A DNA stretch of 64,000 nucleotides from the IMG/VR virus record IMGVR_UViG_3300035670_000172, positions 1-64,000 of that record; one strand, written 5' to 3'. Positions 3 through 57,733 of this stretch are shown piece by piece. The notes beneath the pieces are model-generated. The model was not told where the DNA came from. It saw only the letters and a list, made by a program, of their open reading frames with translations, and did not search any database. Position numbers and translations under genes: made by a program. Origin of the DNA: a virus. The first letter of the stretch is position 1, and each line of letters starts with the position of its first letter.

Positions 3-2336
3 GGTTTTGCGGATTACTTTTTGATTGTATGGGATTTGGTGAAGTGGGCTGACAATAACGGCATTGGTCGTGGTACTGGTCGTGGGTCTGTTGGCGGTAG
101 TGTCTTGGCGTTTTTGTTGGACATTACTCAAGTTGATCCAATCAAATACAATCTGCTGTTCGCTCGGTTTATCAACCCCGAAAGAAACGACTATCCCGAC
201 ATTGACTTGGACTTTGAAGACAAGCGCCGTGATGAGGTTAAAACTTATCTTGCCACTCGCTGGGGTAAAGATAATGTAGCGGCAATTTCCATCTATGGTA
301 CTTTCAAATCAAAGAGTGCGGTTAAAGATGTTGCAAGAGTGCTACAAGTTCCGTATGCCGAGATCAACTCCATCACACCGTTTTTTGAAACCATTGATGA
401 GCTCAAAGCCACCGAAAAAGGCAAGGTCTTTATCAAGAAATATCCCGATGTTGTACCGTTGGCATCAAGGTTGGAAAATCGGATTCGTACCGCTGGAGTC
501 CATGCGGCTGGAATGGTGGTTTCCTCCGTTCCGTTGACCGATGTTTGCCCCGTTGAATCCCGTAAGGATTCTCAAGGTGGAGACCGTTCGGCTGTTACCG
601 CTTTTGCGATGGAAGATGCCGAAGCCGTTGGGCTTATTAAAATAGATGTTTTGGGTCTAAAGACCGTATCTGTCATTAAAGATTGCTTAGCGAAGATCCA
701 GGAGCGTCTGGGGATAGATGTGAGGGCTCAATCACTCAAGCTGGATGACCATAAAGTGTTTGAAAACTTCAATAATATCAACACCGTTGGTATCTTTCAG
801 GCTGATGCGGCTGCTTATAGAAACCTCATTGAAAGAATGGGTATTGACAACTTTAATGACCTTGTTGTATCTAACGCATTGGTTAGACCTGGAGCCTTGC
901 TCTCACAAGGGCAGAAGTATATTGACTGTAAAAAGGGTGTCGCTAAGCCTAAGTACCCTGACGAAGTAGTGCGAGAAATCTTGGAAGAAACTTACGGTAC
1001 TGTAATTTTCCAAGAGCAACTTATGCAAATGGCTGTGTTGCTCGCAGACTTTACTTGGTCAGAAGCCGACTCGTTGCGTAAGATCATTGGTAAGAAGCGA
1101 GATGCGGCAGGATTTGATAAATACAAAGAGAAGTTTGTAAACAACAAGTACCTTACCCCAGCACAATCTGAGAAGATTTGGGCAGAGTTTGAAATGTCAG
1201 CTTTGTATATGTTTAACAAATCACATGCTGTTGCTTACTCACTCATGTCATATCAGACAATGTGGTTGAAGATCAACTACCCTCTTGAATTCATTTGGGC
1301 ACTTCTTTACAATGAGTCTGCATCTGACAAGATCACTGCTTATCTGATGGAAGCACAAAGGCTTGGATTAAAAATCTATGCGCCTGACATTAATAAGTCA
1401 GAAGAGTTCTTTTCAATGTCACTTCCAGGTGAAGAGGAGGGGATTAGATTCGGTCTTGCCAATGTCACTGGGTGCGGTACTAGTGCGATCAAAGAGATTA
1501 CAACGAAGCGACCATTCAATTCATTTGAGGAGTTTAGTCATAAGTGTTCTAAGTCTGCTGTCAAAGCTCCGCTTAGAGAGAACTTGGATAAAGTTGGTGC
1601 GTTTGAATCAATTGGTCATGTATCGCAATTTGATAATGAGAAATATTATTTGCCGATCCTTGGGTTCCCAATTGCGGCTAATCAACACAAGACTGCTATT
1701 GATGAATTTGTAGAAAATGCGGCTGAATTTCATGAAACAATGTCAAACATTACTCTTATTAAAGCTGTAGTTCGCTCTACAAAGAAAGCTACGGGCTATT
1801 TGCGGGTGGAATTTGAAGATCACTCAGGTTCTTGTACTGTGTTTGGCGAGCGCAATACTGAGCTGGCACAAAGAGATTATGTGTATGCACTTATTGGTGA
1901 TAGAACACTCCATGCATACTGTGATGTATATCAGGCGGAAGATTCAAACCTGTTTAATATCATGATGATGAAGAAGAACGGGCAAGACCATAAGTATTCT
2001 TGGTTGTATGAGCATGGTATTGGTTATGTAACTGACGAAAAAACTCTTGCCTACATCTTTAATATCAGAAACTTTATTACTTCATCTGGCAAGGAAATGG
2101 CTAGCGTTTATTGCTGGGATGGGAAGCAGTTTTTTAAGATTGTAATTTTTTCCGCTGTGTACAAGAAAGTTAAGCAGATGCTTAAGGAAGGCGAATGGTA
2201 CGCTGTTCGTCTGTCAAAAGTTGAAGACAAGAACACTCTTAACCGTCTTGACTCCTACAAGCTTGAAGCGGCAGACAAAATTATCACAGTGGATGATTAT
2301 ATTAAGAGGAAGAATTTAGTAAAAGAGAGTGTTTAA
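3..2336 (+). CDS. dnaE: DNA polymerase III alpha subunit, C-terminal part (5'-truncated)
   Basis: This is a family C (bacterial-type) replicative DNA polymerase, which would copy the phage genome. The frame is open to the left edge. Its first residues, GFADYFLIVWDLVKWA, are an internal conserved motif, so the PHP domain and true start lie outside the window and the TTG at 21 is not a start. PDIDLDF near nt 195-215 gives two catalytic aspartates and IKIDVLGLK near 635-660 the third. FQEQLMQMA and FNKSHAVAYSLMSYQT match further polymerase motifs. The last 250 or so residues are less conserved and probably hold the OB-fold region. The stop overlaps the next start (TAATG), which places it in a rightward operon with the RecA-like gene. 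Confidence 0.95.
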   Translation, partial: GFADYFLIVWDLVKWADNNGIGRGTGRGSVGGSVLAFLLDITQVDPIKYNLLFARFINPERNDYPDIDLDFEDKRRDEVKTYLATRWGKDNVAAISIYGTFKSKSAVKDVARVLQVPYAEINSITPFFETIDELKATEKGKVFIKKYPDVVPLASRLENRIRTAGVHAAGMVVSSVPLTDVCPVESRKDSQGGDRSAVTAFAMEDAEAVGLIKIDVLGLKTVSVIKDCLAKIQERLGIDVRAQSLKLDDHKVFENFNNINTVGIFQADAAAYRNLIERMGIDNFNDLVVSNALVRPGALLSQGQKYIDCKKGVAKPKYPDEVVREILEETYGTVIFQEQLMQMAVLLADFTWSEADSLRKIIGKKRDAAGFDKYKEKFVNNKYLTPAQSEKIWAEFEMSALYMFNKSHAVAYSLMSYQTMWLKINYPLEFIWALLYNESASDKITAYLMEAQRLGLKIYAPDINKSEEFFSMSLPGEEEGIRFGLANVTGCGTSAIKEITTKRPFNSFEEFSHKCSKSAVKAPLRENLDKVGAFESIGHVSQFDNEKYYLPILGFPIAANQHKTAIDEFVENAAEFHETMSNITLIKAVVRSTKKATGYLRVEFEDHSGSCTVFGERNTELAQRDYVYALIGDRTLHAYCDVYQAEDSNLFNIMMMKKNGQDHKYSWLYEHGIGYVTDEKTLAYIFNIRNFITSSGKEMASVYCWDGKQFFKIVIFSAVYKKVKQMLKEGEWYAVRLSKVEDKNTLNRLDSYKLEAADKIITVDDYIKRKNLVKESV

Positions 2337-3058
2337 TGCTTCTTACTATTTATATACCAACATATAGGCGTGAATCTGTTGTTCATTGCGTTGAAAGTAT
2401 AATTGATCAGATGACAGATCAAGTTGAGTTAATCATATCTGACAATGATGAAGATGGTTTTGCAAAAAACCTTTTATATCCATATTCACAATACATAACG
2501 GAGTACTCTGTAAGAAAACAAAACATAGGGTGTGATGGTAATTGTTTGTACGGAATAACTAGCGGTAGCGGTGAGTATGTATGGGTGATTGGTGATGACG
2601 ATGTTCTTCTTCCAGGAGCTATTGAAACAATACTTCCGATGTTAAATGGAGTAGACAGAGTTATGCAATTTGCACCTTACTCTGGCGAAGTTGTGTCTGG
2701 TTTTTCTGGTACAATGGCTGAGTTGATAAATCTTTTAAATGATAAATCATTTTTAGTCGCAGCAACACTTGCAAGCATGAATATTTGGAGAAGAGATGTT
2801 ATGGATTACAAGATTGGGGTTAAAAATCTGGATTCAAGGAATGTCCTTGCATGGTCTGGTATTAACTGCAAGACCGTATCTACCCCTCCAGTTCCAACTG
2901 TTCTTGTTAATGACACTAACCTATACGAATTCAAGGGTTTTGACACAGTGATGTTTGACTACACAGACTCACTAGCTGACGCTAATGGTGTAGATAGATT
3001 TACATTTTACAATGCAAATAGATGGACATTTGTTAGTTCATCACTGGAGAAAAAATGA
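2336..3058 (+). CDS. family 2 (GT-A) glycosyltransferase
   Basis: A probable GT-A fold sugar transferase using a nucleotide-sugar donor. The N-terminus LTIYIPTYRRESVVHCVESI is the usual GT2 start. VELIISDNDEDG follows, and VWVIGDDDVLLPGAIE near residues 80-95 carries the metal-binding Asp cluster. No membrane segment is visible, so it is probably cytoplasmic. The acceptor cannot be read from the sequence. It overlaps the polymerase gene at its start and the cytidylyltransferase gene at its end (ATGA), so the three are translationally coupled. Pairing with a nucleotidyltransferase suggests a joint role in making and using an activated precursor. Confidence 0.8.
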   Translation: MLLTIYIPTYRRESVVHCVESIIDQMTDQVELIISDNDEDGFAKNLLYPYSQYITEYSVRKQNIGCDGNCLYGITSGSGEYVWVIGDDDVLLPGAIETILPMLNGVDRVMQFAPYSGEVVSGFSGTMAELINLLNDKSFLVAATLASMNIWRRDVMDYKIGVKNLDSRNVLAWSGINCKTVSTPPVPTVLVNDTNLYEFKGFDTVMFDYTDSLADANGVDRFTFYNANRWTFVSSSLEKK

Positions 3059-3489
3059 TTGTATATACTGGCGGCACATTTGACCTGTTTCATTCAGGTC
3101 ATGTTAGGTTATTAAAGAAGTGTAGGGATTTGGCGGGTGATGATGGGCAAGTTGTTGTCTCTGTAAACCCAAGCGAGTTTGTGTCTGCCTATAAAGAACC
3201 ACCAATTTGTGACTTGATGGAGAGAATGGAAGTTGTTGCTTCATGTAAATGGGTTGACAAAGTTATCATCAATATAGGCGAAGCTGATTCCAAGCCTGCT
3301 ATTTTAGAGACAAATCCAGATCTAATCGTTGTCGGCTCTGATTGGGCAAATAAAGATTATCATAAACAAATGGGATTTACTCAGAAGTGGTTGGATGAGC
3401 ACAATATCAAAGTTGTATTCGTATCATACACAGAGGACATCTCAACAACAATTATTAAAGCAAGAATTTTAGATAGAATGTTTCAATAA
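3055..3489 (+). CDS. cytidylyltransferase-like nucleotidyltransferase
   Basis: This matches the TagD/HldE-type nucleotidyltransferase family, which activates small phosphorylated substrates (for example glycerol-3-phosphate or heptose-phosphate) with CTP or ATP. The HxGH signature is present in TGGTFDLFHSGHVRLLKK, and the C-terminal ISTTIIKARI matches the family's substrate-nucleotide motif. At 144 residues it is the normal length for a one-domain enzyme. It overlaps the upstream glycosyltransferase by 4 nt. The exact substrate cannot be assigned. With the neighbouring glycosyltransferase it may supply an activated sugar or alcohol for surface or nucleic-acid decoration; that is inference. 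Confidence 0.82.
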   Translation: MIVYTGGTFDLFHSGHVRLLKKCRDLAGDDGQVVVSVNPSEFVSAYKEPPICDLMERMEVVASCKWVDKVIINIGEADSKPAILETNPDLIVVGSDWANKDYHKQMGFTQKWLDEHNIKVVFVSYTEDISTTIIKARILDRMFQ

Positions 3490-4562: not shown

Positions 4563-5816
4563 TTGATTTTTTCAATTCATACCGATCAGCACATTAAGGA
4601 TGCGGAGGGTGTATTTGGCTATGCCTATGGTTACGATAATATTGTAAAGCATTTTAATCAGTTCTCTTATCGTGGTAAGAATCTTGAGGTTGTAGATAAC
4701 GACCCAGCCGCTCAGATCCAGATGTTTTATATGGAACCAGAGTGGCATCACCCCGTCACAGGGCAGGACTTTAGACAGCCAGGGTTTAAGAAACATCATG
4801 ACCATCAGTACAAAATTAATGGTACATATTTAGAAGCAACAAAGGTTTGGGATTGGTGGATTCCCACGATGAAAACATTTGATGAGATCTGGGTGGGTAA
4901 TCAATTCTCTGCAGATGCAATTGCTAATTCTGGGATAGATGTACCAACATATGTATTTGAACTTGGTATTGATGATATGTGGAAGCCATTTAAGCGAGGT
5001 GGTCGGGATAAAATACGATTTCTCCATGTTGATTCTGGAAGTCAACGCAAGAGGGCAGATCTTGTTGAGAAAGCTTTCCTTAAGTTGTTTAAAAACAATA
5101 ATGATGTTCAATTAACATTAAAATATCATGGCACTGGCGAGAGTGCTGGATATAGCGTCATGAATCTTTTTGAAGAAAACTACGGTTCAAATATTTTTAG
5201 AATTTTTAAAACTCTTTCACAGGAAGAAATGGTTCAATTATATTACAAACATGACATTTTGATTTACCCAACAGAGGGCGAGGGATTCGGTTTGATACCC
5301 CTCCAGGCTTTAGCTACAGGCATGCCAACGATTTCAACGAGCAGATGGTGTAGCTACGAAAAGTACTTAGGCAGTAATATTATTGAATCAACACTTGGCA
5401 AAACACAGCACTCTGGTTATCATACTGGCGATGTTATTCTTCCAGATTTTGATTCAACAGTTGAGTTGATGAAGAATGCGGTGGATAATTTTGATGCTCA
5501 ATGTGATTTTTATTATAATCAAGCGCCAGAAGTGATTAAAGAATACAATTGGCAGAAGCAATGTAACAAGATGTTGAACGGCTTAATTAAGCGTGTTGGT
5601 GTCGGGATGTTTAAACCTCTCGGCAGAGTATCTAGGAAAAAGCATATATATTTTGATCATGGAACGGGGTATGCCTTGCAATCTGGTATTAAATTTACAA
5701 AAGAACAGCGGATTCTATTGGTTTCCCAGGAAGAATATGATATGTTAATAACTAATCCTAATTTTAGAGAACCAACAGAGCAAGAACTGGAAAAATATTT
5801 TAGTGAAAAGAACTGA
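4563..5816 (+). CDS. GT4-type glycosyltransferase with a C-terminal extra module
   Basis: A GT-B fold glycosyltransferase of the GT4 kind. MKTFDEIWVGNQF (about residue 100) and IRFLHVDSGSQRKRADLVEKA open the donor domain. YPTEGEGFGLIPLQALATG near residue 240 is the conserved nucleotide-sugar site with its Glu-x7-Glu pattern. It starts at TTG directly after the preceding stop. Residues 362-417 form a separate module (FDHGTGYALQSGIKF ... NFREPTEQELEKYF) that is clearly related to the C-terminus of the small protein at 57326-57733 near the capsid gene. That link suggests the enzyme may be targeted to the virion. Sugar and acceptor are unknown. Confidence 0.82.
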   Translation: MIFSIHTDQHIKDAEGVFGYAYGYDNIVKHFNQFSYRGKNLEVVDNDPAAQIQMFYMEPEWHHPVTGQDFRQPGFKKHHDHQYKINGTYLEATKVWDWWIPTMKTFDEIWVGNQFSADAIANSGIDVPTYVFELGIDDMWKPFKRGGRDKIRFLHVDSGSQRKRADLVEKAFLKLFKNNNDVQLTLKYHGTGESAGYSVMNLFEENYGSNIFRIFKTLSQEEMVQLYYKHDILIYPTEGEGFGLIPLQALATGMPTISTSRWCSYEKYLGSNIIESTLGKTQHSGYHTGDVILPDFDSTVELMKNAVDNFDAQCDFYYNQAPEVIKEYNWQKQCNKMLNGLIKRVGVGMFKPLGRVSRKKHIYFDHGTGYALQSGIKFTKEQRILLVSQEEYDMLITNPNFREPTEQELEKYFSEKN

Positions 5817-8472: not shown

Positions 8473-9227
8473 TGCAAAGAAGAGTTTCGGGTGCCGATTT
8501 AGGAATATTTGCCGAACTAGACATGGTGTATAACCAGGCAAGGATGATTGAGGCAAGTCAAAATAAAACAAAATATAAATGTTTGGGGTCGGGCAATTGT
8601 TGCACGATAGGATTAACAATCCATATGACTGAGTGTGCAAATATTGCGTTCAATATCACTCAGCAGTTTTATTTGCATTTGGAAAATAAAGGTAAAGAGT
8701 ACGCAGATGAGTGGTTTGGTTCAGTAGTTAGTTCTTTAAAGGAGGCAATGTACGATGAAACATGGCAATTCGGTGGTGAGACTGAGAGAAAATGTTCTTT
8801 CTATAAAAACGGGTGCACTATCTATGGGTTTAGACCTCTGGTGTGCAGAAGCTATGGGGCTTTTGTCGGTGTTGACGATGTTTGTCCTAGAGAAAGAAAT
8901 GTTTACGGCAATGTAGAGCACTTCTCTGGTACCCCAGTTGAGGAAATGGTAAAACAGTTTCAGGGGTTGCTTAAGAGATATTCAAAGGATAAAGATTCAA
9001 ACTATGATGTAGTGGTTTATATGCCTCTCGGAGTTCTCAGTTTTCTTTTAAGCCCAGAAGAATTAGAAGATCTTGCTGATAAAACAGATGATAGGATGTG
9101 GAAAGCTGTTGAAGGCTGGTTTAATTATAGAGTTGAATATACAAAGGTTCATGGGCTACCCCTGCCAAAATTAAGAGAAGCTGCTGATGCTGCTGGGAAA
9201 AAAATTGCGTTTCAAGTAGAGCAGTAA
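8472..9227 (+). CDS. YkgJ-like cysteine-cluster protein (UPF0153-type)
   Basis: The Cys pattern matches the YkgJ/CxxxxxCC family, thought to bind zinc or iron: CLGSGNCCTIG near residue 37, then CSFYKNGCTIYGFRPLVCRS near residue 112, then VCPRERN. The RPLVCR segment is diagnostic. Phage copies are common but their role is not established. The first 30 residues and the 100-aa tail show no other motif. It overlaps the flanking genes by one base each (TAATG). Confidence 0.8.
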   Translation: MQRRVSGADLGIFAELDMVYNQARMIEASQNKTKYKCLGSGNCCTIGLTIHMTECANIAFNITQQFYLHLENKGKEYADEWFGSVVSSLKEAMYDETWQFGGETERKCSFYKNGCTIYGFRPLVCRSYGAFVGVDDVCPRERNVYGNVEHFSGTPVEEMVKQFQGLLKRYSKDKDSNYDVVVYMPLGVLSFLLSPEELEDLADKTDDRMWKAVEGWFNYRVEYTKVHGLPLPKLREAADAAGKKIAFQVEQ

Positions 9228-10258
9228 TGATCACCTGGACAGATAATGGTTCGTCAAGAATTGGTGAGGGCTATGGCGATGCATCGTATCACATTACTAA
9301 GTATTTAAAATCTAGCGGTCTAGATTTTCACAAGACCGAGCTAGAGCCGCCAGATGAGATCAGCGGTCTGCAAATCGGTTACTCAATTAAAACTAGTATT
9401 CATGAAGGTGTTGTTATCAATCACTGCCTGCCAGAGTATTACGGTAGTCATGGTGATTATAAGATAGGTTTTTCATATTGGGAGACAACTCAATTACCTA
9501 ATCACTGGGTTGATGAGTGCAACAAGATGGATGAAATATGGACTACATCTGATTTTATGAGATCGGTATTTATCTATAGCGGCGTGACTAAGCCAGTGTA
9601 TAGTTTTAAACTAGGGGTTGACCCAGAAATCTATTATCCAGTAAAAAGGAGCAGAAAAAGCCCTTTTACATTTTTAAGTATAGGCTCACCCTCAACAAGA
9701 AAAAATTCTCAAGTAGCTGTTGATGCTTTTATAAAAATGTTTGGCGGTAACGATGGGTACCGTATGATATACAAATCCAAAGGTCCTCCAGATGCTAGAT
9801 CATTTAGCAATGGAATGAAGGGGGCGCTAAACCATCCACAAATTGATATCATTGATTATGAAATTAGTACAGAAGAATTAGGGAAGCTTTATGACAAAGC
9901 AGACTGCTTAGTTTACCCAACAAGCGGAGAAGGGTGGGGTCTTCTACCTTTCCAGGCGATAGCCAAAGGTATCCCAACGATATGCACAAATTTTACTGCA
10001 TGTGCAGAGTTTGCTCATCTTTCTGTGCCGCTTGATTATTCAGTCTCAGATTACAAGATGTCTGGTATATATGAGGGTGCTGGACACTGGGCAATGCCAG
10101 ATTTCAGCGATTTGTGTGATAAAATGTTGTATGTAGTAAATAACTACGAAAGAGTCTCTAATGAGACATATTTATCCGCATTGTACATACAAGACACTAT
10201 GACATGGGAAAAGGTTTCAAAGGAGTACATAGATAGATTATGTCAGATATTGAAGTAG
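9227..10258 (+). CDS. GT4-type glycosyltransferase
   Basis: A GT-B fold glycosyltransferase related to those at 4563 and 48960. N-terminal part: FSYWETTQLPNHWVDECNKM and MDEIWTTSDFMRSVF. Donor domain: FTFLSIGSPSTRKNSQVAVD, then YPTSGEGWGLLPFQAIAKG near residue 228, the nucleotide-sugar site. Unlike the 4563 enzyme it has no extra C-terminal module. Cytoplasmic. It is placed directly before the terminase genes and overlaps the next gene by 19 nt. Confidence 0.85.
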   Translation: MITWTDNGSSRIGEGYGDASYHITKYLKSSGLDFHKTELEPPDEISGLQIGYSIKTSIHEGVVINHCLPEYYGSHGDYKIGFSYWETTQLPNHWVDECNKMDEIWTTSDFMRSVFIYSGVTKPVYSFKLGVDPEIYYPVKRSRKSPFTFLSIGSPSTRKNSQVAVDAFIKMFGGNDGYRMIYKSKGPPDARSFSNGMKGALNHPQIDIIDYEISTEELGKLYDKADCLVYPTSGEGWGLLPFQAIAKGIPTICTNFTACAEFAHLSVPLDYSVSDYKMSGIYEGAGHWAMPDFSDLCDKMLYVVNNYERVSNETYLSALYIQDTMTWEKVSKEYIDRLCQILK

Positions 10259-33977: not shown

Positions 33978-34043
33978 GATATAAGAATTTGAGTTGTGAT
34001 TAGAAATGTATATTAAATTAGAATAAGGAAGGATACAAGCATA

Positions 34044-34084
34044 GCTGGTGCTCACGGTGCGCCTAGCACTAAGTGAGCACCAGC
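34044..34084 (+). repeat. conserved-loop stem-loop, plus copy 1
   Basis: Perfect 12-bp stem GCTGGTGCTCAC/GTGAGCACCAGC around loop GGTGCGCCTAGCACTAA. The loop contains the shared core TGCGNNTAGCANNAA, in which TGC and GCA can pair. Confidence 0.88.
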
Positions 34085-34091
34085 GAATAAA

Positions 34092-34115
34092 AGCCCCCAG
34101 CGAGTGCTGGGGGCT
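34092..34115 (-). terminator. terminator of array cassette 1
   Basis: Stem AGCCCCCAGC/GCTGGGGGCT, loop of 4; on the minus strand it is followed by TTTTATT. Confidence 0.85.
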
Positions 34116-34137
34116 TTCGTACTCAATGCGTATGCAA

Positions 34138-34446
34138 TTACTTGCGATTACGCTTTTTCTTTTGCACCTTTAATGCAACAAGCATTTCACCATCCTCTGT
34201 CCAAAAAATTGACACATCACGCTGTGCAATTTCTGCGCATTTGGCGACACGATTACGCCATGTGTTCTTGTGGTTCACATAGTCATCATCGGATGGTGTG
34301 CCCTGTGCCTTGTCAATTCTCACAGCGTCACCATCAATGCTTGCATCAAGCGACAGGATATCGGCAACAATTTCATCATCATGAAACGCCTCACGCCCAC
34401 GCTTGACCAAATTGGTCACTTGATTAAGGTTTATCTTTTGGCTCAT
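34138..34446 (-). CDS. array cassette 1: small basic-tailed protein, paralog family A
   Basis: 102-aa protein starting MSQKINLNQVTNLVKRGREA; the ATG at 34446 matches its paralogs and follows GAGGG. Family A has three members here (this one, 34746-35054, 35391-35699). All share the N-terminal KINLN-x-VTNLVKRGRE helix, an acidic middle (VADILSLDASIDGDA), NHKNTWRNRVAK, and a strand pair V-S-I-x-W-T-x-x-G-x-M ending in a Lys/Arg tail (KKKRNRK). A DNA- or RNA-binding role is likely from the basic ends; no known family. Confidence 0.85.
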   Translation of the reverse strand: MSQKINLNQVTNLVKRGREAFHDDEIVADILSLDASIDGDAVRIDKAQGTPSDDDYVNHKNTWRNRVAKCAEIAQRDVSIFWTEDGEMLVALKVQKKKRNRK

Positions 34447-34458
34447 TGTTATTCCCTC

Positions 34459-34528
34459 TGTCAAGGTGGTTAGGAATTGTCCTTGACATCAATTACTTTA
34501 TCATATGCGGAGAATATGTGTATTCAAT
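34459..34528 (-). promoter_or_regulatory. cassette 1 promoter and leader hairpin
   Basis: Minus strand: TTGAAT (34522-34527), 21 bp, TAAAGT (34495-34500). Leader stem TGTCAAGG/CCTTGACA at 34459-34488 lies just before the SD. Confidence 0.75.
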
Positions 34529-34552
34529 TTAAGAGAGACCTGATCCCCTTAT

Positions 34553-34597
34553 GGCGGTTGTGCAACTTGATGCTAAGCGCACCGTTGCACCACCGCC
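34553..34597 (-). repeat. conserved-loop stem-loop, minus copy 1
   Basis: Stem GGCGGTGGTGCAAC/GTTGCACAACCGCC; loop GGTGCGCTTAGCATCAA on the minus strand. Lies upstream of the cassette 1 promoter. Confidence 0.88.
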
Positions 34598-34610
34598 GAC
34601 CATGTGAGTT

Positions 34611-34627
34611 GAGAATGTGTATTAAAA
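34611..34627. repeat. element B (GAGAATGTGTATTAAAA)
   Basis: Near-copy of the promoter element TTGAATACACATTCTC on the far side of the stem-loop, but without TAnnGT 21 bp away. Similar copies: 35225, 35894, 36432, 37088, 37599, 38481, 39010, 39621. Confidence 0.65.
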
Positions 34628-34652
34628 ACATCTATACCTGGACTCCCAAAAA

Positions 34653-34693
34653 GCTGGCGTTCACGGTGCGACTAGCACCAAGTGAACGCCAGC
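34653..34693 (+). repeat. conserved-loop stem-loop, plus copy 2
   Basis: Perfect 12-bp stem GCTGGCGTTCAC/GTGAACGCCAGC; loop GGTGCGACTAGCACCAA. Stem bases differ from copy 1 but pairing is kept. Confidence 0.88.
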
Positions 34694-34700
34694 AAACAAA

Positions 34701-34724
34701 AGCCCCCAGCGGGTGCTGGGGGCT
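34701..34724 (-). terminator. terminator of array cassette 2
   Basis: Stem AGCCCCCAGC/GCTGGGGGCT with 4-nt loop; minus-strand TTTTGTT follows. Confidence 0.85.
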
Positions 34725-34745
34725 ATTGCCAACGCTGATTAGGCG

Positions 34746-35054
34746 TTACTTGCGCTTGCGCTTAGCCTTGACAGGCTTGAGTGAGACGATCATCTCGCCT
34801 TCGGTAGTCCAATGAATGGACACTTCACGATCAGCCTGCTCGGCAGACTTCGCAACTCGGTTACGCCAAGTGTTTTTGTGGTTGAGATATTCATCATCGC
34901 TCGGGTCTCCCGTTGCGGTTGGAAAGATGAACGCATCGCCTTCAATGCTCGCATCTAATGCGAGAATATCAGCAACCAACTCGGGGTCGTTATATCCTTC
35001 ACGACCACGCTTGACTAGGTTTGTAACTTCATTCAGGTTTATTTTCATTGCCAT
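34746..35054 (-). CDS. array cassette 2: paralog family A
   Basis: 102 aa, MAMKINLNEVTNLVKRGREG at the start and KAKRKRK at the end, very close to cassettes 1 and 3. Differences cluster in the middle (GDAFIFPTATGDPSDDEYLN). Leader SD is AAGGG. Adjacent near-identical cassettes imply tandem duplication of the whole unit including its promoter and stem-loops. Confidence 0.85.
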   Translation of the reverse strand: MAMKINLNEVTNLVKRGREGYNDPELVADILALDASIEGDAFIFPTATGDPSDDEYLNHKNTWRNRVAKSAEQADREVSIHWTTEGEMIVSLKPVKAKRKRK

Positions 35055-35068
35055 AGGTATATCCCTTA

Positions 35069-35141
35069 TCGGCAGGGGTCTAGGTTTGTTTTCCTACCGA
35101 CAAATACACAATATCATATGCGATGAGAATGTGTATTCAAT
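35069..35141 (-). promoter_or_regulatory. cassette 2 promoter and leader hairpin
   Basis: TTGAAT (35135-35140), 21 bp, TATTGT (35108-35113). Leader stem TCGGTAGG/CCTGCCGA at 35069-35100. Confidence 0.75.
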
Positions 35142-35166
35142 ATAATATGTAACTCATACCCAGCCA

Positions 35167-35209
35167 GCGGTTGTGCAACTTGATGCTAGGCGCACCGTTG
35201 CACCACCGC
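35167..35209 (-). repeat. conserved-loop stem-loop, minus copy 2
   Basis: Stem GCGGTGGTGCAAC/GTTGCACAACCGC; loop GGTGCGCCTAGCATCAA on the minus strand. Confidence 0.88.
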
Positions 35210-35267
35210 CTGCGGGTGAGGATTGAGAATTTGTACTAAACATGTGAATGTATGTAGCTCTATACGA

Positions 35268-35306
35268 CAGGTGTTCACGGTGCGAATAGCACAAAGTGAA
35301 CACCTG
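35268..35306 (+). repeat. conserved-loop stem-loop, plus copy 3
   Basis: Perfect 11-bp stem CAGGTGTTCAC/GTGAACACCTG; loop GGTGCGAATAGCACAAA. Last of the plus-strand copies. Confidence 0.88.
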
Positions 35307-35314
35307 CGAAGAAA

Positions 35315-35340
35315 AGCCCCCATGCCGAAGCATGGGGGCT
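35315..35340 (-). terminator. terminator of array cassette 3
   Basis: Stem AGCCCCCATGC/GCATGGGGGCT around CGAA; TTTTC follows on the minus strand. Confidence 0.82.
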
Positions 35341-35390
35341 CTCTCCGTTGCAGGGATAACCCTGCGCCACACTGCCGAAGCGAGTGTAGA

Positions 35391-35699
35391 TTACTTGCGT
35401 GTGCGCTTCTTCTTCACTGGCTTGAGCGAGACAATCATTTGACCGTCTTCAGTCCAGTGAATTGAGCATTCACGGTCTGCCTGTTCTGCAGACTTCGCAA
35501 CACGATTGCGCCAAGTGTTCTTGTGATTGACGAACTCTTCGTCACTTGGATCACCTGTTGCACTCTCGTAAATGAATGCGTCACCGTCAATGGAAGCGTC
35601 AAGCGACAGAATGTCTGCCACTAGTTCAGGGTCATTGTAACCCTCACGCCCACGCTTGACGAGGTTCGTGACCTCATTCAGATTGATTTTCTGTGCCAT
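35391..35699 (-). CDS. array cassette 3: paralog family A
   Basis: 102 aa, MAQKINLNEVTNLVKRGREG ... KKKRTRK. Closest to cassette 2; GDAFIYESATGDPSDEEFVN replaces its variable middle. GGGAGAAATATA precedes the ATG. Same inferred nucleic-acid-binding role. Confidence 0.85.
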   Translation of the reverse strand: MAQKINLNEVTNLVKRGREGYNDPELVADILSLDASIDGDAFIYESATGDPSDEEFVNHKNTWRNRVAKSAEQADRECSIHWTEDGQMIVSLKPVKKKRTRK

Positions 35700-35712
35700 T
35701 ATATTTCTCCCT

Positions 35713-35806
35713 GTTCATGAACTACCCCACCCAAAGGGTATGGGTGGTATTAGGTGTTCACCAACACTTCATACAATACCCAATGGTATGAGAATATCTA
35801 TTCAAT
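35713..35806 (-). promoter_or_regulatory. cassette 3 promoter and leader
   Basis: TTGAAT (35800-35805), 21 bp, TATTGT (35773-35778). The leader hairpin differs from the others: CCACCCA/TGGGTGG at about 35727-35747. Confidence 0.72.
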
Positions 35807-35831
35807 ATATGAGATCATTTATCACCAGTTA

Positions 35832-35874
35832 GCGGTTGTGCAACTTTCTGCTAATCGCACCGTAGCCCCACCGC
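35832..35874 (-). repeat. conserved-loop stem-loop, minus copy 3
   Basis: Loop GGTGCGATTAGCAGAAA on the minus strand; stem GCGGTG...CTAC/GTTG...CACAACCGC with some mismatches. Confidence 0.82.
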
Positions 35875-35956
35875 CAAATCGTCTTGTGAGCATGTGAATA
35901 TATATTAAATATTGAAATGGTTACGATACGATTGGGTCGGAGTTCAGGCAAAAAAA

Positions 35957-35992: not shown

Positions 35993-36008
35993 CGCTGGAG
36001 AAGCGACC

Positions 36009-43766: not shown

Positions 43767-44366
43767 TTAAACATATTTAATTGCACTAGAAAGTGCATAT
43801 TTAACAATACCATAATTAGCAGTAGCAATATCTGCTGCAACAAGTGTATAGTCGTATAATATATTATCAATCCTTCTTCTGTTATACGCTGAATGATACT
43901 CAATCAAATAAATATCTGGCTTAATAACCATGTTTTCTAGTATTTCAATCTCAGCACCTTCGGTATCAATTTTCACAATATCTGCTTTTGGCAGCAAACT
44001 TGCTGCTACAACAGAAACATCCTCACCCTCTTCAACCTGCTCAGCGCCATGTTGAAAACTGCATTCACCAACATTGTGAGCTCCATAATACATTCTTCTT
44101 TGCTCTGTCTTTGAACCTATTGCAAGATTCATAACCATAATGTTATCAAGATCTTTTGTATTTGATTTTAAAAACTCAAAATTTTTCTTAATTGGTTCAT
44201 ATGAATAAATTTTTGAATTCTTCCATCTCTGATTAGCCCATAAACAAAATCCACCAACATTACCACCGATGTCTAGAATTACTGGATTTTCTTTTTCATA
44301 TGGAATGTCGTACTCCCCTTTGAATATTTTTTCAATATGGGAAATCATGTTGTTTGGAGCTTTCAT
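43767..44366 (-). CDS. FkbM-family methyltransferase
   Basis: A Rossmann-fold SAM-dependent methyltransferase. NPVILDIGGNVGGFCLWANQ near residue 28-47 is motif I. IYSYEPIKKNFEFLK follows with the acidic ribose contact, and ADIVKIDTEGAEIEILENM near 130 is the FkbM signature. FkbM enzymes often methylate sugars or glycolipids, which fits the glycosyltransferases in this genome. No membrane segment. Confidence 0.88.
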   Translation of the reverse strand: MKAPNNMISHIEKIFKGEYDIPYEKENPVILDIGGNVGGFCLWANQRWKNSKIYSYEPIKKNFEFLKSNTKDLDNIMVMNLAIGSKTEQRRMYYGAHNVGECSFQHGAEQVEEGEDVSVVAASLLPKADIVKIDTEGAEIEILENMVIKPDIYLIEYHSAYNRRRIDNILYDYTLVAADIATANYGIVKYALSSAIKYV

Positions 44367-48959: not shown

Positions 48960-49973
48960 ATGAAAAAAATAAGCTGGTTTAGCCCTGGTAGTGTTGATGT
49001 AAGCGGTATGCCTTGGTATAGTCAAGGCTACAGTAATGCTGCTTTAAATGTCATTAACTCATTAATGCAAAAAGATATTGGTGTCTTCTACAATAGAAAT
49101 GAAATTCCATTTCATATTAATTTTTGCCAGCCTCATTATTATCAAATGCAGAATCTATATAAGGTTGGTTACACACCTTGGGAGTCAACAAAGATTCCAG
49201 TAGGTTGGTATCACAACATGCAGAAGATGGATGAGATATGGGCAACATCAAATTTTGTAAAAGATGTGTATGTTAAAAACAATGTTCATCACAATATTCA
49301 TGTAATACCTCACGGCATCTCGGATGACTTTAAAATAGTAGATAGAGAAGTTACAAAAACATTTAATTTCCTTCATGTTGGCGGAGATTCAAAAAGAAAA
49401 AATGCGCAGATGGTGGTTGATGCTTTTCTTGAACTATATGAAGACAATATGGACTTTAAGCTTGTATTAAAATACAATGGTTTTTGCCAAGCTGAAGTTT
49501 ACATTGATAATAATTTGGTACCAGCAACTCAACATCCTCAGATAGTTGGGATACCAGAAAACTTAAGCACAGAAGACCTAGTTAAGCTTTATCATAAATG
49601 TCACTGCCTTGTTTACCCAACAAGTGGTGAAGGTTTTGGAATGATTCCATTTGAAGCAATCTGTACAGGTATGCCGACAATTGTAACAGATGCAACTGGC
49701 TGTAGTGATTTTGCAAAATATTCAATACCTTTGTCATGTAGGATGGATAATGCTGAGTGGAATAATCACCAATATGGTGAAGACACTGGCATGTGGGCAT
49801 ATCCAGATATGGACCAGCTTATGGATCTTATGACTCATGTTGTTTCTGAATACGATGAGTTTAAGAAATATACGATGCAGTCTGCAAGGATATTGCATAA
49901 TGAGCATTCTTGGTCAAACATTGCAGACAAAATTATTGAAAGAATTTCTTTTTACGAAAATAATTTTTCTTAG
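48960..49973 (+). CDS. GT4-type glycosyltransferase
   Basis: Third GT-B enzyme of the window. VGYTPWESTKIPVGWYHNMQ and MDEIWATSNFVKDVYV parallel the gene at 9227. FNFLHVGGDSKRKNAQMVVD opens the donor domain, and YPTSGEGFGMIPFEAICTG near residue 218 is the nucleotide-sugar site. DATGCSDFAKYSIPL follows. Its position just upstream of nrdJ and the virion genes separates it from the other two. Confidence 0.86.
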   Translation: MKKISWFSPGSVDVSGMPWYSQGYSNAALNVINSLMQKDIGVFYNRNEIPFHINFCQPHYYQMQNLYKVGYTPWESTKIPVGWYHNMQKMDEIWATSNFVKDVYVKNNVHHNIHVIPHGISDDFKIVDREVTKTFNFLHVGGDSKRKNAQMVVDAFLELYEDNMDFKLVLKYNGFCQAEVYIDNNLVPATQHPQIVGIPENLSTEDLVKLYHKCHCLVYPTSGEGFGMIPFEAICTGMPTIVTDATGCSDFAKYSIPLSCRMDNAEWNNHQYGEDTGMWAYPDMDQLMDLMTHVVSEYDEFKKYTMQSARILHNEHSWSNIADKIIERISFYENNFS

Positions 49974-52030: not shown

Positions 52031-52377
52031 TGTCGTCAAATATTGTTAAGGATAAAAACCTTTGGGTCCCTGAGCGTGCTTATGGTGTATGTGTTTATTT
52101 TACTTCAAAAGATGAAGCTTTGTTAGATAGCGATGGCGGTGTTTTGTGCGCTGAAGGTTATATGCACGATTTAGATATTGAAAAAAGAGTTCTTGAAGCT
52201 GGTCGCTATTGGTCTGGAGATGCAGACGGTATTGTTAAATGGATAGCTGGAGCCAGAAAGGTTTCATCGTCAGAAAGAGATGATCAACAAGAAAGGTTGA
52301 ATGATGGATTAGTTGCTGATCCATTTGAAGACATGTATGACGATCACTTTTCAAATAGGAGTAACAATGGAAAATAA
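52030..52377 (+). CDS. conserved phage protein before the portal gene (115 aa)
   Basis: NLWVPERAYGVCVYFTSKDE, LLDSDGGVLCAEGYMHD, and WIAGARKVSSSERDDQQERL match a small protein often found next to portal genes. Overlaps the portal gene by 11 nt. Possibly a head-assembly helper. Confidence 0.75.
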   Translation: MSSNIVKDKNLWVPERAYGVCVYFTSKDEALLDSDGGVLCAEGYMHDLDIEKRVLEAGRYWSGDADGIVKWIAGARKVSSSERDDQQERLNDGLVADPFEDMYDDHFSNRSNNGK

Positions 52378-54028
52378 AACAGAATTGGTTGAGGAAAGAA
52401 TTCTTCTAGATGAAGAGATAGATGATATATCGTACATGGGGTTTACAACCAAAGTTGAGGCAACGGATCCTTTTAACCTGGTAAAGATAGATAGCCTTTC
52501 TCCAAAAATGAAAAGAAAGGCAATGCGCCTTCAGAAAAAACATGAAGGTGAAGATGGAACCGCATCTAAGTATGTTGACCCAGAAGTTGTAAGTGGTTAT
52601 TCGCTTTATGACATTGTAAACCCACCATACGATCTTGACACCTTGGCTGGTCTTTATGATCAAAGCGCAATTCATTACGCAGCAATTAATGCAAGAGTTA
52701 TGAACACCGTTGGTCTTGGCTATGAGTTCACTGAAACGCTAAAAGCAAAAAGAAGGATTGAAAAATCTCAGGGTAGTGAAGATAAATTAATTAGGCTGCG
52801 TCAGCAGTATCAAGATTTGAAAGAAGGTCTTGATGAAACATTTGAAAATTTAAATATTGAAGAAACACTTATTGAAACATTAGTTCGTGTTTGGCAAGAT
52901 GTTTTAACAGTAGGTAATGGGTATCTAGAGGTTGGTAGAAACAATTCTGGAAAAATTGGTTACATTGGTCATGTACCAGCAACACTTGTTCGTGTAAGAA
53001 GGAAGCGAGATGGTTATGTTCAGATTGCAAAAACAAATAAAATTCAAGCTGTGTTCTTTAGGCAGTTTCAAGACACAGAAACTCAGGATCCAATTAATAG
53101 CGATCCAAAACCAAATGAACTAATTCATTTCAAAATCTATTCACCAAATAACACATACTATGGAATCCCATCAGCTGTGTCAGCAGCTGCTGCAATTGTT
53201 GGTGATAAATTTGCAAAAGAATATAATATTGATTATTTTGAAAATAAAGCAATTCCTCGTTATGCAATTATTCTTAAAGGTGCAAAGCTTAGTAATAAAT
53301 CAAAACAAGAACTTATTAATTATTTTAGAAACGAAGTAAAAGGAAGGAATCACGGCACGCTCGTTATTCCAATTCCAGCGAGTCTTGGAACTGATACCGA
53401 CATTAAGTTTGAAAAGCTTGAGGCTGGAATTCAGGATTCATCGTTTGATAAGTACAGAAAATCAAACAGAGATGAAATTCTTGTTGCCAATAGAGTTCCT
53501 GCTCCAAAAGTTGGTGTGTACGATAATGCCAACTTAGCTGTCTCACGAGACGCAGACAAATCATTTAAGATGCAAGTGATTGGACCAGATCAGGCTGTTA
53601 TAGAAAAAAAATTAAACAGGATTGTTTCTGAGTTTACTGATCTAATGCAAATCAAACTTAAGAAAATTGACTTGGTTGATGAGGACATTCAATCAAGAAT
53701 CAACGATAGATATCTTCGTACAGAAGTTCTTACGCCAAACGAAGTTAGAGGTCAAATTGGACTTCCAGAAAGGTTTGATGGAGATGAAGTTTTGCCCTTC
53801 CCAACAAATGTTAAGAAAGAACAGAATGCAGCTGGTAAGCCTGGTCCAGGTGCTCCAGTTGGTAATTCTAATAACGCAGCATTTGAGCCGCCAAAATCAC
53901 CAACTGGTGATGGAGCAACTAGTGATCCAGTGGCAGATGGTGCTCAAGCCGAAAGAGGCGAAAATCAAGATTCTGGAGTGAACAACGATTCAACCAGTAA
54001 ATTTATTCAAGGAGAATACAATGAGTGA
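52367..54028 (+). CDS. portal protein
   Basis: Forms the dodecameric ring at one capsid vertex through which DNA enters. ATG at 52367 follows AATAGGAGTAACA; the frame is open further back in the preceding gene. Visible blocks: DLDTLAGLYDQSAIHYAAIN, LVRVWQDVLTVGNGYLEVGR near residue 175, and FKIYSPNNTYYGIPSAVSAA near 257. Then comes YNIDYFENKAIPRYAIIL, typical of PBSX/SPP1-type portals. The C-terminal 60 residues are low complexity (Pro, Gly, Asn). 553 aa. Confidence 0.88.
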   Translation: MENKTELVEERILLDEEIDDISYMGFTTKVEATDPFNLVKIDSLSPKMKRKAMRLQKKHEGEDGTASKYVDPEVVSGYSLYDIVNPPYDLDTLAGLYDQSAIHYAAINARVMNTVGLGYEFTETLKAKRRIEKSQGSEDKLIRLRQQYQDLKEGLDETFENLNIEETLIETLVRVWQDVLTVGNGYLEVGRNNSGKIGYIGHVPATLVRVRRKRDGYVQIAKTNKIQAVFFRQFQDTETQDPINSDPKPNELIHFKIYSPNNTYYGIPSAVSAAAAIVGDKFAKEYNIDYFENKAIPRYAIILKGAKLSNKSKQELINYFRNEVKGRNHGTLVIPIPASLGTDTDIKFEKLEAGIQDSSFDKYRKSNRDEILVANRVPAPKVGVYDNANLAVSRDADKSFKMQVIGPDQAVIEKKLNRIVSEFTDLMQIKLKKIDLVDEDIQSRINDRYLRTEVLTPNEVRGQIGLPERFDGDEVLPFPTNVKKEQNAAGKPGPGAPVGNSNNAAFEPPKSPTGDGATSDPVADGAQAERGENQDSGVNNDSTSKFIQGEYNE

Positions 54029-54321: not shown

Positions 54322-56160
54322 ATGTCAGATTTTAATATTTCATTCCCAATTGATATGATTAAGAGGGAGCAAAGGATAGTGGTTGGCATTGCTACCGCAG
54401 ACAATGTTGATAAAGCTGGCGATATTGTTGACTTTGAGGCTTCCAAAGAGGCTTTTGCAAACTGGGGTGGGAACATCAGAGAGATGCACGCCCCTGTTGC
54501 TGTAGGCAAGGCTGTAAGTTATGAGCCAATCATTATTGATGGTCCAGACGGTGAAAAATATAATGCTTTTAAAGTAGAAGCTTATATTTCAAAGGGAGCC
54601 GAAAACACATGGCAAAAAATCCTTGACGGAACTCTTCGCTCTTTTTCAATCGGCGGTAAAGTTATTCAAAAGGCAGAGTCCACGGAAAAGATGTTCAGAG
54701 GCAAGCCAGTAAATATTATTAAGAAATATGTGCTTGGAGAGCTTAGTCTCGTAGACAACCCAGCAAACGCTTTGGCTGTTATTGATATTGTAAAAATGGA
54801 TCAAGACGGAGCAATGCAGTATGCCCTTGATTGCGATCTTGACTGTCAGCTCGCTAAGGCAAAGCAACCATTGAAAGATCCAAAAGGTGGGCTTACCGCT
54901 GCGGGTAGAAGGCATTTTAAGCAAACAGAGGGCGCTAATCTAAAGCCAGGTGTTAGGGGTGCCGCAAATACTCCAGAAAAATTGCGCCGCAAAGGTTCTT
55001 TCTTAACAAGATTTTTTACCAATCCCTCTGGTCCTATGAAGAAACCAAATGGTGAACCAACAAGGCTTGCACTTTCCGCTGCTGCTTGGGGCGAGCCAAT
55101 CCCTCAAGATAGAGCTGATGCCGCAAGGCTCGCTGCGAAAGGTCGCAGGATGCTTGAGCGATATGCTAATTCAAAAAAGAAAGGTTTCTTTGATGATGAT
55201 TTTAATGAAGATCTATTAAATACGGTTTTAAAATTGATGGATGATAAAAATTGCGAGTGCGGTTGCAATACTTGCGAAGATGTTGAAAAACAAACATCTG
55301 TAACCACAGAAAACGCTGAGTCTAAATATCCATCTAGAAATGGGATTAAGTCCCCAACAGTTCCGCCATTCCCCTCTGGTTCGCCAAAGTTTAAGCCAAA
55401 AAAAGATGGTTCATGCGGGGATGGCTATCACCAAGAAGGTGAAAAAAAAGGCAAGGATGGAAATATGGTACCAAACTGTGTTCCAAATAATCCTGCTAAA
55501 AAAGTAACAAAAAGCAATATCTCTGAACAAGATATGCAATATTTTGATACAATTAAGGAGATGATTAATAAAATGGAAACAGATATTGATAATGGCGTTG
55601 GTTCAGAAGTAAATAATACTAATGATTCCGAATTGCAATTAAATGATACTTATGATAAGATCTCTGACATGAATGAACAAGAAATTAGTAAGCTTAGTCT
55701 ATTGAAAAAGTTTATTGGATGGCTTGTTCCCGATGTCGCAGAAGAAATAACTTCAACTTCCGTTGAAGTAAGTGGAGACACACAGGAGGAAGAAATGGAC
55801 ATTAATGTTCTTAAAGATGCTCTGAGTGCTGTTGTTGATGAAAAACTGGCTAGTTTTGCTACTTCAATCAAGGAAGAAGTTGAAGCCTCTGTTCAGGAAA
55901 AAATTGAAGCAGTCGCAAAGGGTTTTGAAGTTCAGGGTGCTGAACTTCAGCAGAAGCTGGAAACAGCAGAGTTGGCTCTCGCTGAGCAAACAGAAAAGGT
56001 TGAGGCATTTGCCGCAGCTGGCGCTGTAAAGAAGAGCGTTGACCCAGAAGATGATGAAGAAACAGCAGAAGAGGCAATTGCCAAGTCTGCACCTACTTCA
56101 TTCTGGAGAAATACATATCTGCCGCAGGAGTTAATTAACTCCCTAGGTTACAGGTCATAA
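54322..56160 (+). CDS. prohead protease fused to scaffolding protein (XkdF-like)
   Basis: Residues 1-150 fit the XkdF-like head maturation protease: RIVVGIATADNVDKAGDIVD, NIREMHAPVAVGKAVSYEP with the candidate catalytic His, and LRSFSIGGKVIQ ... VLGELSLVDNPANALAVIDI. Residues about 178-295 are an insert (PKGGLTAAGRRHFKQTEGAN, WGEPIPQDRADAARLAAKGR) seen in other large-phage capsid proteases. After a Cys cluster (CECGCNTCED) comes KDGSCGDGYHQEGEKKGKDG. The C-terminal 120 residues are a scaffold-like coiled coil. An internal AGGAGGAAGAA-ATG at 55795 is in frame and could make the scaffold separately. Confidence 0.82.
   Translation: MSDFNISFPIDMIKREQRIVVGIATADNVDKAGDIVDFEASKEAFANWGGNIREMHAPVAVGKAVSYEPIIIDGPDGEKYNAFKVEAYISKGAENTWQKILDGTLRSFSIGGKVIQKAESTEKMFRGKPVNIIKKYVLGELSLVDNPANALAVIDIVKMDQDGAMQYALDCDLDCQLAKAKQPLKDPKGGLTAAGRRHFKQTEGANLKPGVRGAANTPEKLRRKGSFLTRFFTNPSGPMKKPNGEPTRLALSAAAWGEPIPQDRADAARLAAKGRRMLERYANSKKKGFFDDDFNEDLLNTVLKLMDDKNCECGCNTCEDVEKQTSVTTENAESKYPSRNGIKSPTVPPFPSGSPKFKPKKDGSCGDGYHQEGEKKGKDGNMVPNCVPNNPAKKVTKSNISEQDMQYFDTIKEMINKMETDIDNGVGSEVNNTNDSELQLNDTYDKISDMNEQEISKLSLLKKFIGWLVPDVAEEITSTSVEVSGDTQEEEMDINVLKDALSAVVDEKLASFATSIKEEVEASVQEKIEAVAKGFEVQGAELQQKLETAELALAEQTEKVEAFAAAGAVKKSVDPEDDEETAEEAIAKSAPTSFWRNTYLPQELINSLGYRS
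55795..56160 (+). CDS. internal in-frame scaffolding protein (121 aa, candidate)
   Basis: AGGAGG 5 nt before an in-frame ATG at residue 492 of the protease gene, stronger than most SDs here. The product begins MDINVLKDALSAVVDEKLAS, runs through a long Glu/Lys/Ala coiled coil and ends LPQELINSLGYRS. Same principle as lambda C/Nu3; inferred from sequence only. Confidence 0.65.
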   Translation: MDINVLKDALSAVVDEKLASFATSIKEEVEASVQEKIEAVAKGFEVQGAELQQKLETAELALAEQTEKVEAFAAAGAVKKSVDPEDDEETAEEAIAKSAPTSFWRNTYLPQELINSLGYRS

Positions 56161-56180: not shown

Positions 56181-57227
56181 ATGGCATCACAAGAAGAAAT
56201 TTTAGCAAAAGCTAACGAAGTCACCACAGCGGTGGTTTCAAACAGCAGCCCAGTCAGCGGTGGTGGTGGTCTTCTCTACCCAGAGCAAGCCAACCGCTTC
56301 CTTGACTTCGTTGTTGATCAATCAGTTTTGATGAAGAACGCACGAGTAATTCGTATGCGTACTCCACAGATGGACATTGATAAGGTATCTGTTGGTACCC
56401 GCTTGCTTGCAAAGGCAACAGAAGCAACAGATGATGGCACAAACGCAGCTGTCACATTCAGCAAGGTATCGCTTTCAACAGTAAAGCTCCGTCTTGACTG
56501 GAACATTTCAACAGAATCGTTGGAAGACAACATTGAGGGAGCTTCACTGGAAGACCATATCGCACAGATCATGGCTCGCCAGACAGCAAACGACCTTGAT
56601 GACTTGTTTATCAACGGTAACACATCGTCAAACAACGCCCTTCTTAAGGCTCTTGACGGCTTTACCAAGCTTGCAAAGGCATCTGGAACAACTGTAGACT
56701 TTGGCGGAAACAATGTTTCTCGTTCGGTCTATGACAAGATTCTACGCAACATGCCAACCAAGTACTTGCAGCGCCGTAATGAACTGAGGTTCTTCTCGGG
56801 TCCAGGTGTTGTACAAGACTCAATTTATAGCTTGGGAAATCCAAACTCGGCAACTGAGGCAACAGCAGGCGCACCTGCTCCAATGTCAACAGCTGGTGAA
56901 ATGGCATTCTTGCAAGGTGCAATGAGAGCTAATGGTGGTCCAGGTGCAACTGGTCTTTCGCCATTCGGTATTCCATTGATTGAAGTACCTTTGATGCCAG
57001 AAACCCTTGCGGGTGACTACTCTGGAACAGCTGGATCACATGGTCATGTGGAACTCACATTCCCTAACAACCGTGTAATTGGTATTCACCGTGACATCAC
57101 AGTGTATCGCCAGTTCAAGCCAAAGACTGACACAATTGAGTACACGCAGTACATGAGAGTTGCAAGTAACATTGAAAATGCTGAGTCGTATGTAATCGGC
57201 AAGAATGTTAAGTTGCGTTCACTCTAA
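56181..57227 (+). CDS. major capsid protein (HK97 fold)
   Basis: Follows the protease-scaffold gene with AAGGAGGAATAACT before the ATG, the strongest SD of the block. GGLLYPEQANRFLDFVVDQS opens the mature-like part, VRLDWN-type strand VKLRLDWNISTESLEDNIEG follows, then LEDHIAQIMARQTANDLDDL (the long spine helix) and SPFGIPLIEVPLMPE with NNRVIGIHRDITVYRQFKPK near the end. 348 aa, typical. A strong terminator follows. More GC-rich codons than neighbours, as often seen for highly expressed capsid genes. Confidence 0.88.
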   Translation: MASQEEILAKANEVTTAVVSNSSPVSGGGGLLYPEQANRFLDFVVDQSVLMKNARVIRMRTPQMDIDKVSVGTRLLAKATEATDDGTNAAVTFSKVSLSTVKLRLDWNISTESLEDNIEGASLEDHIAQIMARQTANDLDDLFINGNTSSNNALLKALDGFTKLAKASGTTVDFGGNNVSRSVYDKILRNMPTKYLQRRNELRFFSGPGVVQDSIYSLGNPNSATEATAGAPAPMSTAGEMAFLQGAMRANGGPGATGLSPFGIPLIEVPLMPETLAGDYSGTAGSHGHVELTFPNNRVIGIHRDITVYRQFKPKTDTIEYTQYMRVASNIENAESYVIGKNVKLRSL

Positions 57228-57325: not shown

Positions 57326-57733
57326 ATGGGTATTGATGATAGGATTGATGTTATGAATGTAGAAAAAAATAGTGTAACAACAGATGAAATTAACAAGCCA
57401 AAAAAAGCCGCAGCTAAAAAGGCTGTAGCAAAGAAAGTTGCAAAGAAAGTTGAATTTAAAGAAGATGCAATTGACGCTGATGGTGATGGAATGGTTCAGG
57501 ATGGAACTGAACATGAAAGACCAGTTCAAGAAGTTGTTTCTAACAACGAAAATTTACTGATTCTTTTTGAAAGTGGAGCTGGATATGCAACTAGCTCTGG
57601 ATTTCGCTTTTCTCAAACAAACAAAATGGCAGAAGTTCCAGCTGAAGAAGCCAGACTACTGCTGTCACTAGATAATTTTAGATTGCCTAGTGATGAAGAA
57701 AAGGAAATGTATTATAATAATCTGGAGGATTAA
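57326..57733 (+). CDS. Lys-rich protein with Ca-binding-like loop and C-terminal GT-shared module (135 aa)
   Basis: Three parts: a Lys/Ala-rich stretch (KKAAAKKAVAKKVAKKVEFK), an EF-hand-like loop DADGDGMVQDGTEHER near residue 52-67, and a C-terminal module (residues 79-135) with FESGAGYATSSGFRF and NFRLPSDEEKEMYY. The module is clearly homologous to the end of the glycosyltransferase at 4563. Start may be 57326 or 57353. Position right after the capsid gene suggests a virion or head-tail role. Confidence 0.75.
   Translation: MGIDDRIDVMNVEKNSVTTDEINKPKKAAAKKAVAKKVAKKVEFKEDAIDADGDGMVQDGTEHERPVQEVVSNNENLLILFESGAGYATSSGFRFSQTNKMAEVPAEEARLLLSLDNFRLPSDEEKEMYYNNLED

Follow-up and report, generated by a model that had tools for sequence, protein, structure and literature searches.

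Evidence for a single capture of a head-region domain by an actinophage glycosyltransferase, and its possible use as an address to the virion

The targets of phage glycosyltransferases (GTs), whether DNA, cell wall or virion, are usually unclear. Glycosylated capsids have been reported for two mycobacteriophages, Che8 and Rita (Freeman et al. 2023, as cited in PMC11256854 and PMC13313380), virion glycosylation has been proposed for Peregrin and its relatives (PMC13313380), and both DNA protection and cell-wall change have been given as options for the GTs of freshwater actinophages (PMC10202952). Here we describe a GT that shares its terminal domain with a protein encoded in the head region of the same genome, a testable pointer to the virion for one such enzyme.

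The window, by which we mean the whole stretch of 64,000 nucleotides that was analysed (low GC, 37%), comes from a 68.4-kb virus record of IMG/VR (IMGVR_UViG_3300035670_000172). Relatives of this phage reach 105-109 kb and, on our reading of their metagenome sources, are freshwater phages; WhiB is encoded in all eight of the eight records tested, which points to actinobacterial hosts. The features used below are listed here, the major capsid protein being abbreviated MCP, the protein encoded after it called the post-MCP protein and the shared domain the module.

2336..3058, + strand: family 2 glycosyltransferase, upstream of the GT at 4563 (Pfam Glycos_transf_2, 1e-11)
3055..3489, + strand: cytidylyltransferase-like nucleotidyltransferase (Pfam CTP_transf_like, 5e-21)
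4563..5816, + strand: GT-B family glycosyltransferase (phrog_2170) with C-terminal module (Pfam, PHROG, AF2)
5637..5813, + strand: module, GT copy, GT residues ~359-417 (BLASTP, profile A1)
9227..10258, + strand: GT paralogue without module (phrog_2170, 3e-35; no profile match, C-terminus read directly)
43767..44366, - strand: FkbM-type methyltransferase (Pfam Methyltransf_21, 5e-9)
48960..49973, + strand: GT paralogue without module, beside ribonucleotide reductase (phrog_2170, 3e-44)
52313..54028, + strand: portal protein (Pfam Phage_portal, 2e-29)
54322..56160, + strand: head maturation protease (phrog_9427, 1e-48)
56181..57227, + strand: MCP, HK97-type (Pfam Phage_capsid, 3e-10; phrog_1623, 4e-82)
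57326..57733, + strand: post-MCP protein, a variable Lys/Ala-rich N-terminal half followed by the module
57557..57730, + strand: module, post-MCP copy, C-terminal domain of the post-MCP protein (profile A1)

The module and the two proteins that carry it

The GT at 4563 (417 aa, TTG start) matches Pfam Glycos_transf_1 (E 8e-10) and, over residues 43-341, phrog_2170 (1e-44). Its AF2 model (pLDDT 84) has a GT-B fold, with a Chlorella virus GT as the nearest solved structure (3oy2, Foldseek E 3e-11) and SdgB, GtfA, TarM and many GT-B enzymes among the further matches. The GT4-type E-x7-E motif at residues 240-248 reads EGFGLIPLQ, the second Glu being replaced by Gln; this position is Gln in several cultured phrog_2170 relatives, Glu in others, and Glu in the window paralogue at 48960. 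The gene lies in a DNA-metabolism block, downstream of a UvsX-like recombinase and upstream of a Cas4-type exonuclease and RuvC, and the order GT2-nucleotidyltransferase-UvsX-GT is kept in most relatives. In both window paralogues (9227 and 48960) the chain stops where the catalytic fold does, and neither the profile nor inspection of their C-termini revealed a module; a GT adjoining ribonucleotide reductase, as at 48960, also occurs in Peregrin and Samisti12. No GT of the module-bearing type was found in bacterial genomes.

The post-MCP protein (135 aa; judging by the family alignment, translation may really begin at the ATG of residue 10) is encoded 51.5 kb away from the GT, in line with the roughly 52 kb first reported, and directly downstream of the MCP gene, the invariant upstream neighbour of this second module copy. 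It completes a syntenic block ordered portal (52313), protease (54322), MCP (56181) and post-MCP protein (57326). Its N-terminal half contains a DADGDG...DGT stretch, is modelled with low confidence and is probably disordered, whereas its module reaches a pLDDT of about 86-89. Two other products of this region have features of their own. The head protease at 54322-56160 carries a DUF6321 segment and a DGSCGDGYHQEGEKKGKDGNMVPNCVPN stretch (residues ~185-256 and ~360-394), both short and matching several other PHROG families, and the virion protein at 59167-61143 has three CBM_5_12 repeats (Pfam 8e-13), so that the particle may also bind glycans.

In a single BLASTP comparison, GT residues 362-414 align to residues 79-131 of the post-MCP protein with 20/53 identical and 34/53 positive positions (E 5e-11), and the alignment is free of gaps, as the preliminary description had claimed. 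The module thereby delimited makes up the C-terminal ~55 residues of the GT and residues 77-131 of the post-MCP protein. Both reading frames lie where they had been placed, but the module starts slightly before the reported 5646, at residue ~360. In an all-against-all comparison of window ORFs the pair (E 1e-8 in that search) is the top non-paralogous match once the repeat block at 34-40 kb is set aside, and profile A1 matches the window at 5637-5798 (E 3e-26) and 57557-57715 (E 5e-27). The conserved columns comprise an apparent compact core and an N-F-R-x-P-(T/S)-x-x-E stretch.

The preliminary description had named different folds and a lack of profile similarity as grounds for giving up the shared module. 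AlphaFold models of the two proteins, built from two disjoint alignments, instead agree in the succession of strands and helices, which fall at matching positions of the alignment (360-364, 384-387, 389-396 and 406-416 in the GT; 76-81, 101-105, 106-113 and 123-134 in the post-MCP protein; offset 283). Profile matches are also significant, including one between the module and phrog_9487, a family of cultured phages discussed below (hhalign probability 96.8, E 2.6e-10). Chance similarity is thus ruled out by the BLASTP E-value, profile A1 and the profile-profile match. Common ancestry of the whole proteins is ruled out as well, only the C-terminal domain being common to them, and so is a ubiquitous domain, since whole records hold no further copies except marginal partial matches.

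The module has no significant PDB match by sequence or fold, a likeness to the GINS B-domain (5ghr/5ghs) being non-significant at E 0.3-0.9, and only one BFVD match, to a homologue from an uncultured phage, lies below 0.001. Viral contigs scanned with the GT module alone as query yielded nothing. The module bears no curated name in the libraries searched, and its presence on the GT is a genuine fusion of domains within a GT family already known.

The repeat block mentioned above (34043-40150) is mostly non-coding and contains a ~99-nt element 11 times, at spacings of 421-665 nt, each copy with a conserved promoter-like GAATGTGTATTCAAT, ~25 variable bases and a conserved hairpin part, GCGGTTGTGCAACTT...TGCTA..CGCA.CGTTGCACCACCGCC. 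The hairpin shows compensatory changes at four pairs, and the copies are interleaved with terminator-like hairpins. The block has the appearance of a series of small structured RNAs whose 5' segment varies; the element has no Rfam match, and a search of six relatives with a strict pattern of it found none. Antisense to the block run three near-copies of a ~105-aa frame (34141-34488, 34749-35093 and 35394-35714, all - strand; 68-85% identical), probably a by-product of the repeats. The window also encodes three 2OG-Fe(II) oxygenases (41623-42836, - strand; 62642-63250, + strand), which could hydroxylate residues of virion proteins.

Distribution, origin and selection

Two scans blind to the module used search patterns outside it, one anchored on the MCP and the other on the GT catalytic part. 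The ORF following the MCP carries the module at 78/80 loci, and the other two loci end at contig borders. At the GT locus the module ends 67 of 70 complete orthologous GTs (two more, truncated at contig ends, fall outside the 70); the module-bearing proteins span 55-83% identity and the three without it represent two lineages. An apparent invariance of DEEKEMYY in post-MCP proteins was an artefact of the search pattern, the motif occurring in 25/78 proteins of the MCP-anchored set.

When whole records were searched with the profile, five relatives of 91-109 kb (G001, G002, G004, G005 and G006), whose GTs differ by up to 43% from that of the window, had exactly two module copies, at the GT end and after the MCP; G004 has an additional marginal match (21 residues, E 0.003). 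Such a two-copy arrangement in divergent relatives, together with the single origin of the GT copy described below, bears out the shared module of the preliminary description. In another record (G003) the post-MCP copy is present and the GT is truncated by the contig end, a 106-kb relative (G041) has the post-MCP copy only and no GT of the module-bearing subtype, and a third (G043) encodes, following UvsX at this locus, a GT that lacks the module. The absence of the module from the three complete GTs and from the G043 lineage indicates that GT function does not need the module everywhere, and in L147 and L148 the GT C-terminus is shortened.

The relationship extends to cultured phages through phrog_9487. 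A weak match of the module in Rhodococcus phage Trina (E 4) falls in the gene directly after the MCP, which belongs to this family, and family members occupy the same place (portal-protease-MCP-gene) in Trina, Weasels2, Francesca, Tomas, Samisti12 and Karimac; in NiceHouse an endonuclease VII gene is inserted after the MCP and the phrog_9487 gene lies one further on. Of eight large cultured actinophages whose complete genomes were searched, seven (Rhodococcus and Streptomyces phages) carry phrog_9487, and no module copy was detected in the whole genome of Peregrin. The GTs of phrog_9487-bearing phages end with the catalytic fold and lack the module. Similarity to this family is distant for the window post-MCP protein (E 7e-4) and for the GT module alone (0.002). 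Post-MCP proteins of the cultured phages have a weakly SAP-like N-terminus (E 0.05); a SAP-like or helical half is absent from the window protein, with its Lys/Ala-rich, predicted disordered N-terminus, which is therefore a relative in the C-terminal domain only and not a full member.

A tree of 85 modules, resting on 57 columns only, places the 30 GT modules in one clade (100/90) and the cultured-phage family in another (100/99), outside the GT and freshwater post-MCP copies. With the cultured family as outgroup, the GT clade falls among the post-MCP copies, although its sister group is weakly resolved (94/47). Given this nesting and the universal post-MCP copy, the simplest history is one post-MCP-to-GT transfer followed by occasional loss. 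Both the homology of the copies and the direction of transfer, as judged from sequence, are well supported, and the head-region domain was captured once by the GT.

The median dN/dS of the module is 0.24 on the GT and 0.22 on the post-MCP protein; the catalytic part of the GT has a median of 0.09, and the post-MCP N-terminal half one of 0.38. These values are rough because synonymous sites are near saturation. On these estimates the module in the GT is under purifying selection (0.24), retained and not decaying. Coevolution of the two copies within genomes gave no signal in six genomes (permutation fraction 0.24), GT and post-MCP copies of one genome being no more alike than copies from different genomes; this result does not count against docking of the kind proposed below and adds no support to it.

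Possible roles of the module on the GT

In the ancestor of one freshwater branch, a copy of the post-MCP domain was fused once to the end of one of several GT paralogues. On the mechanism we favour, the module would act there as an address tag by binding a component of the head or procapsid, with the MCP or an intermediate of head assembly as the probable partner, and would bring the GT to the assembling virion, so that sugars could be added to capsid or head-fibre proteins. Glycan genes of the window start at 2336, 3055, 9227, 13320, 43767 and 48960, and an Anp1-like GT candidate is also encoded. The neighbouring nucleotidyltransferase, the other GTs and the FkbM-type enzyme, possibly a sugar O-methyltransferase, might supply the activated sugar and its later modification.

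Docking has the best support of the mechanisms considered, since the gene of the source protein always sits beside that of the capsid and glycan genes lie nearby; for a domain encoded invariably downstream of the capsid gene that has been added to a GT, the simplest role is an address to the head. What counts against it is that the module has no significant PDB relative from which a partner could be read, that the GT module evolves faster than the catalytic part (0.24 vs 0.09), and that the two lineages of complete GTs and the G043 lineage do without it. The preliminary description had suggested that both proteins dock on the same partner, placing the GT on a virion component; the shared domain stands, and docking is a proposal built upon it. 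We give about an even chance to the proposal that, after a single capture from the post-MCP gene, the module docks the GT on the head or procapsid and so directs glycosylation to the virion, and somewhat less than that to the statement that a head-assembly domain, captured once, was reused as the address tag of a virion-targeted GT and kept across an actinophage lineage.

The module might instead associate with itself and recruit the GT to the post-MCP protein as its substrate or scaffold. Every near-complete relative with the module-bearing GT type carries the domain in both proteins, and the variable N-terminal half of the post-MCP protein, rich in Lys, Ala, Ser and Thr, would be a plausible flexible substrate. 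The post-MCP copy nevertheless persists in G041 and the cultured phages, none of which has a module-bearing GT, so its own role is independent of such pairing, and we regard self-association as improbable.

A T4-like modification of phage DNA, with the module as a nucleic-acid-binding or packaging domain, would agree with the position of the GT inside a DNA-metabolism block, with the post-MCP N-terminus (weakly SAP-like in cultured phages, Lys-rich in freshwater ones) and with the DNA protection proposed for freshwater actinophage GTs (PMC10202952). However, no thymidylate synthase-family enzyme, the source of hydroxymethylated pyrimidines, was found in seven records, six of them of 91-109 kb. 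DNA glycosylation becomes less likely for that reason, the search having covered the hydroxymethyl-pyrimidine route only. The GT structure is moreover nearest to GT-B enzymes that modify proteins and small molecules. We therefore consider this reading unlikely, and the nearby glycan genes together with the lack of such an enzyme fit virion rather than DNA glycosylation.

It is also conceivable, if quite unlikely, that the fusion is selectively minor, the domain having been acquired by recombination and persisting as a stabilising or nearly neutral tail. Losses in a few lineages, the shortened C-termini of L147 and L148 and the faster change of the module relative to the catalytic part would agree with this, but the module is present in 67/70 complete GTs across 55-83% identity, and its dN/dS equals the value for the obligate head copy. 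Finally, it is well established that GTs can carry accessory domains for binding glycans, and a virion protein with CBM_5_12 repeats is encoded at 59167, yet a module that is a small carbohydrate-binding domain, holding acceptor or product glycan on the GT and serving as a virion lectin on the head protein, seems very improbable given that neither Pfam nor PDB (sequence or fold) returned a CBM or lectin match and that the conserved columns look like a compact core with the N-F-R-x-P-(T/S)-x-x-E stretch, not like a set of exposed aromatics.

If docking on the head is correct, it would identify the head as the target on which an otherwise orphan phage GT acts. For the post-MCP family phrog_9487, too, the module offers a first lead on function.

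Comparison with known systems

Members of phrog_9487 (Trina gp073 and the Stanwilliamsviridae post-MCP genes) share with the protein at 57326 the place after the MCP and the C-terminal domain; their N-terminal half is helical and weakly SAP/HeH-like, whereas that of 57326 is a Lys/Ala-rich, partly DGDG-bearing linker. The phrog_2170 GTs of Samisti12, Peregrin and others have the same catalytic domain as the GT at 4563 (29-35% identity to cultured relatives), but among the cultured members and window paralogues examined it is the only one with a C-terminal module. The T4-type DNA glucosyltransferase system includes a thymidylate synthase-family enzyme for its hydroxymethylated pyrimidine, unlike the seven records searched here.

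In phage lambda, the gene right after that of the major head protein encodes gpFI, a DNA-packaging chaperone whose C-terminal part binds the head. The window post-MCP protein resembles gpFI in gene position and two-part build; there is no sequence match to the module, and the gpFI fold is not among the 50 PDB fold matches listed for it, none of them significant, so that the functional likeness is a lead only. For Che8 and Rita, phage-encoded GTs are held responsible for glycans on the head proteins of actinophages, and the excerpts of PMC11256854 and PMC13313380 describe no head-protein domain on a GT, whereas the GT at 4563 carries one.
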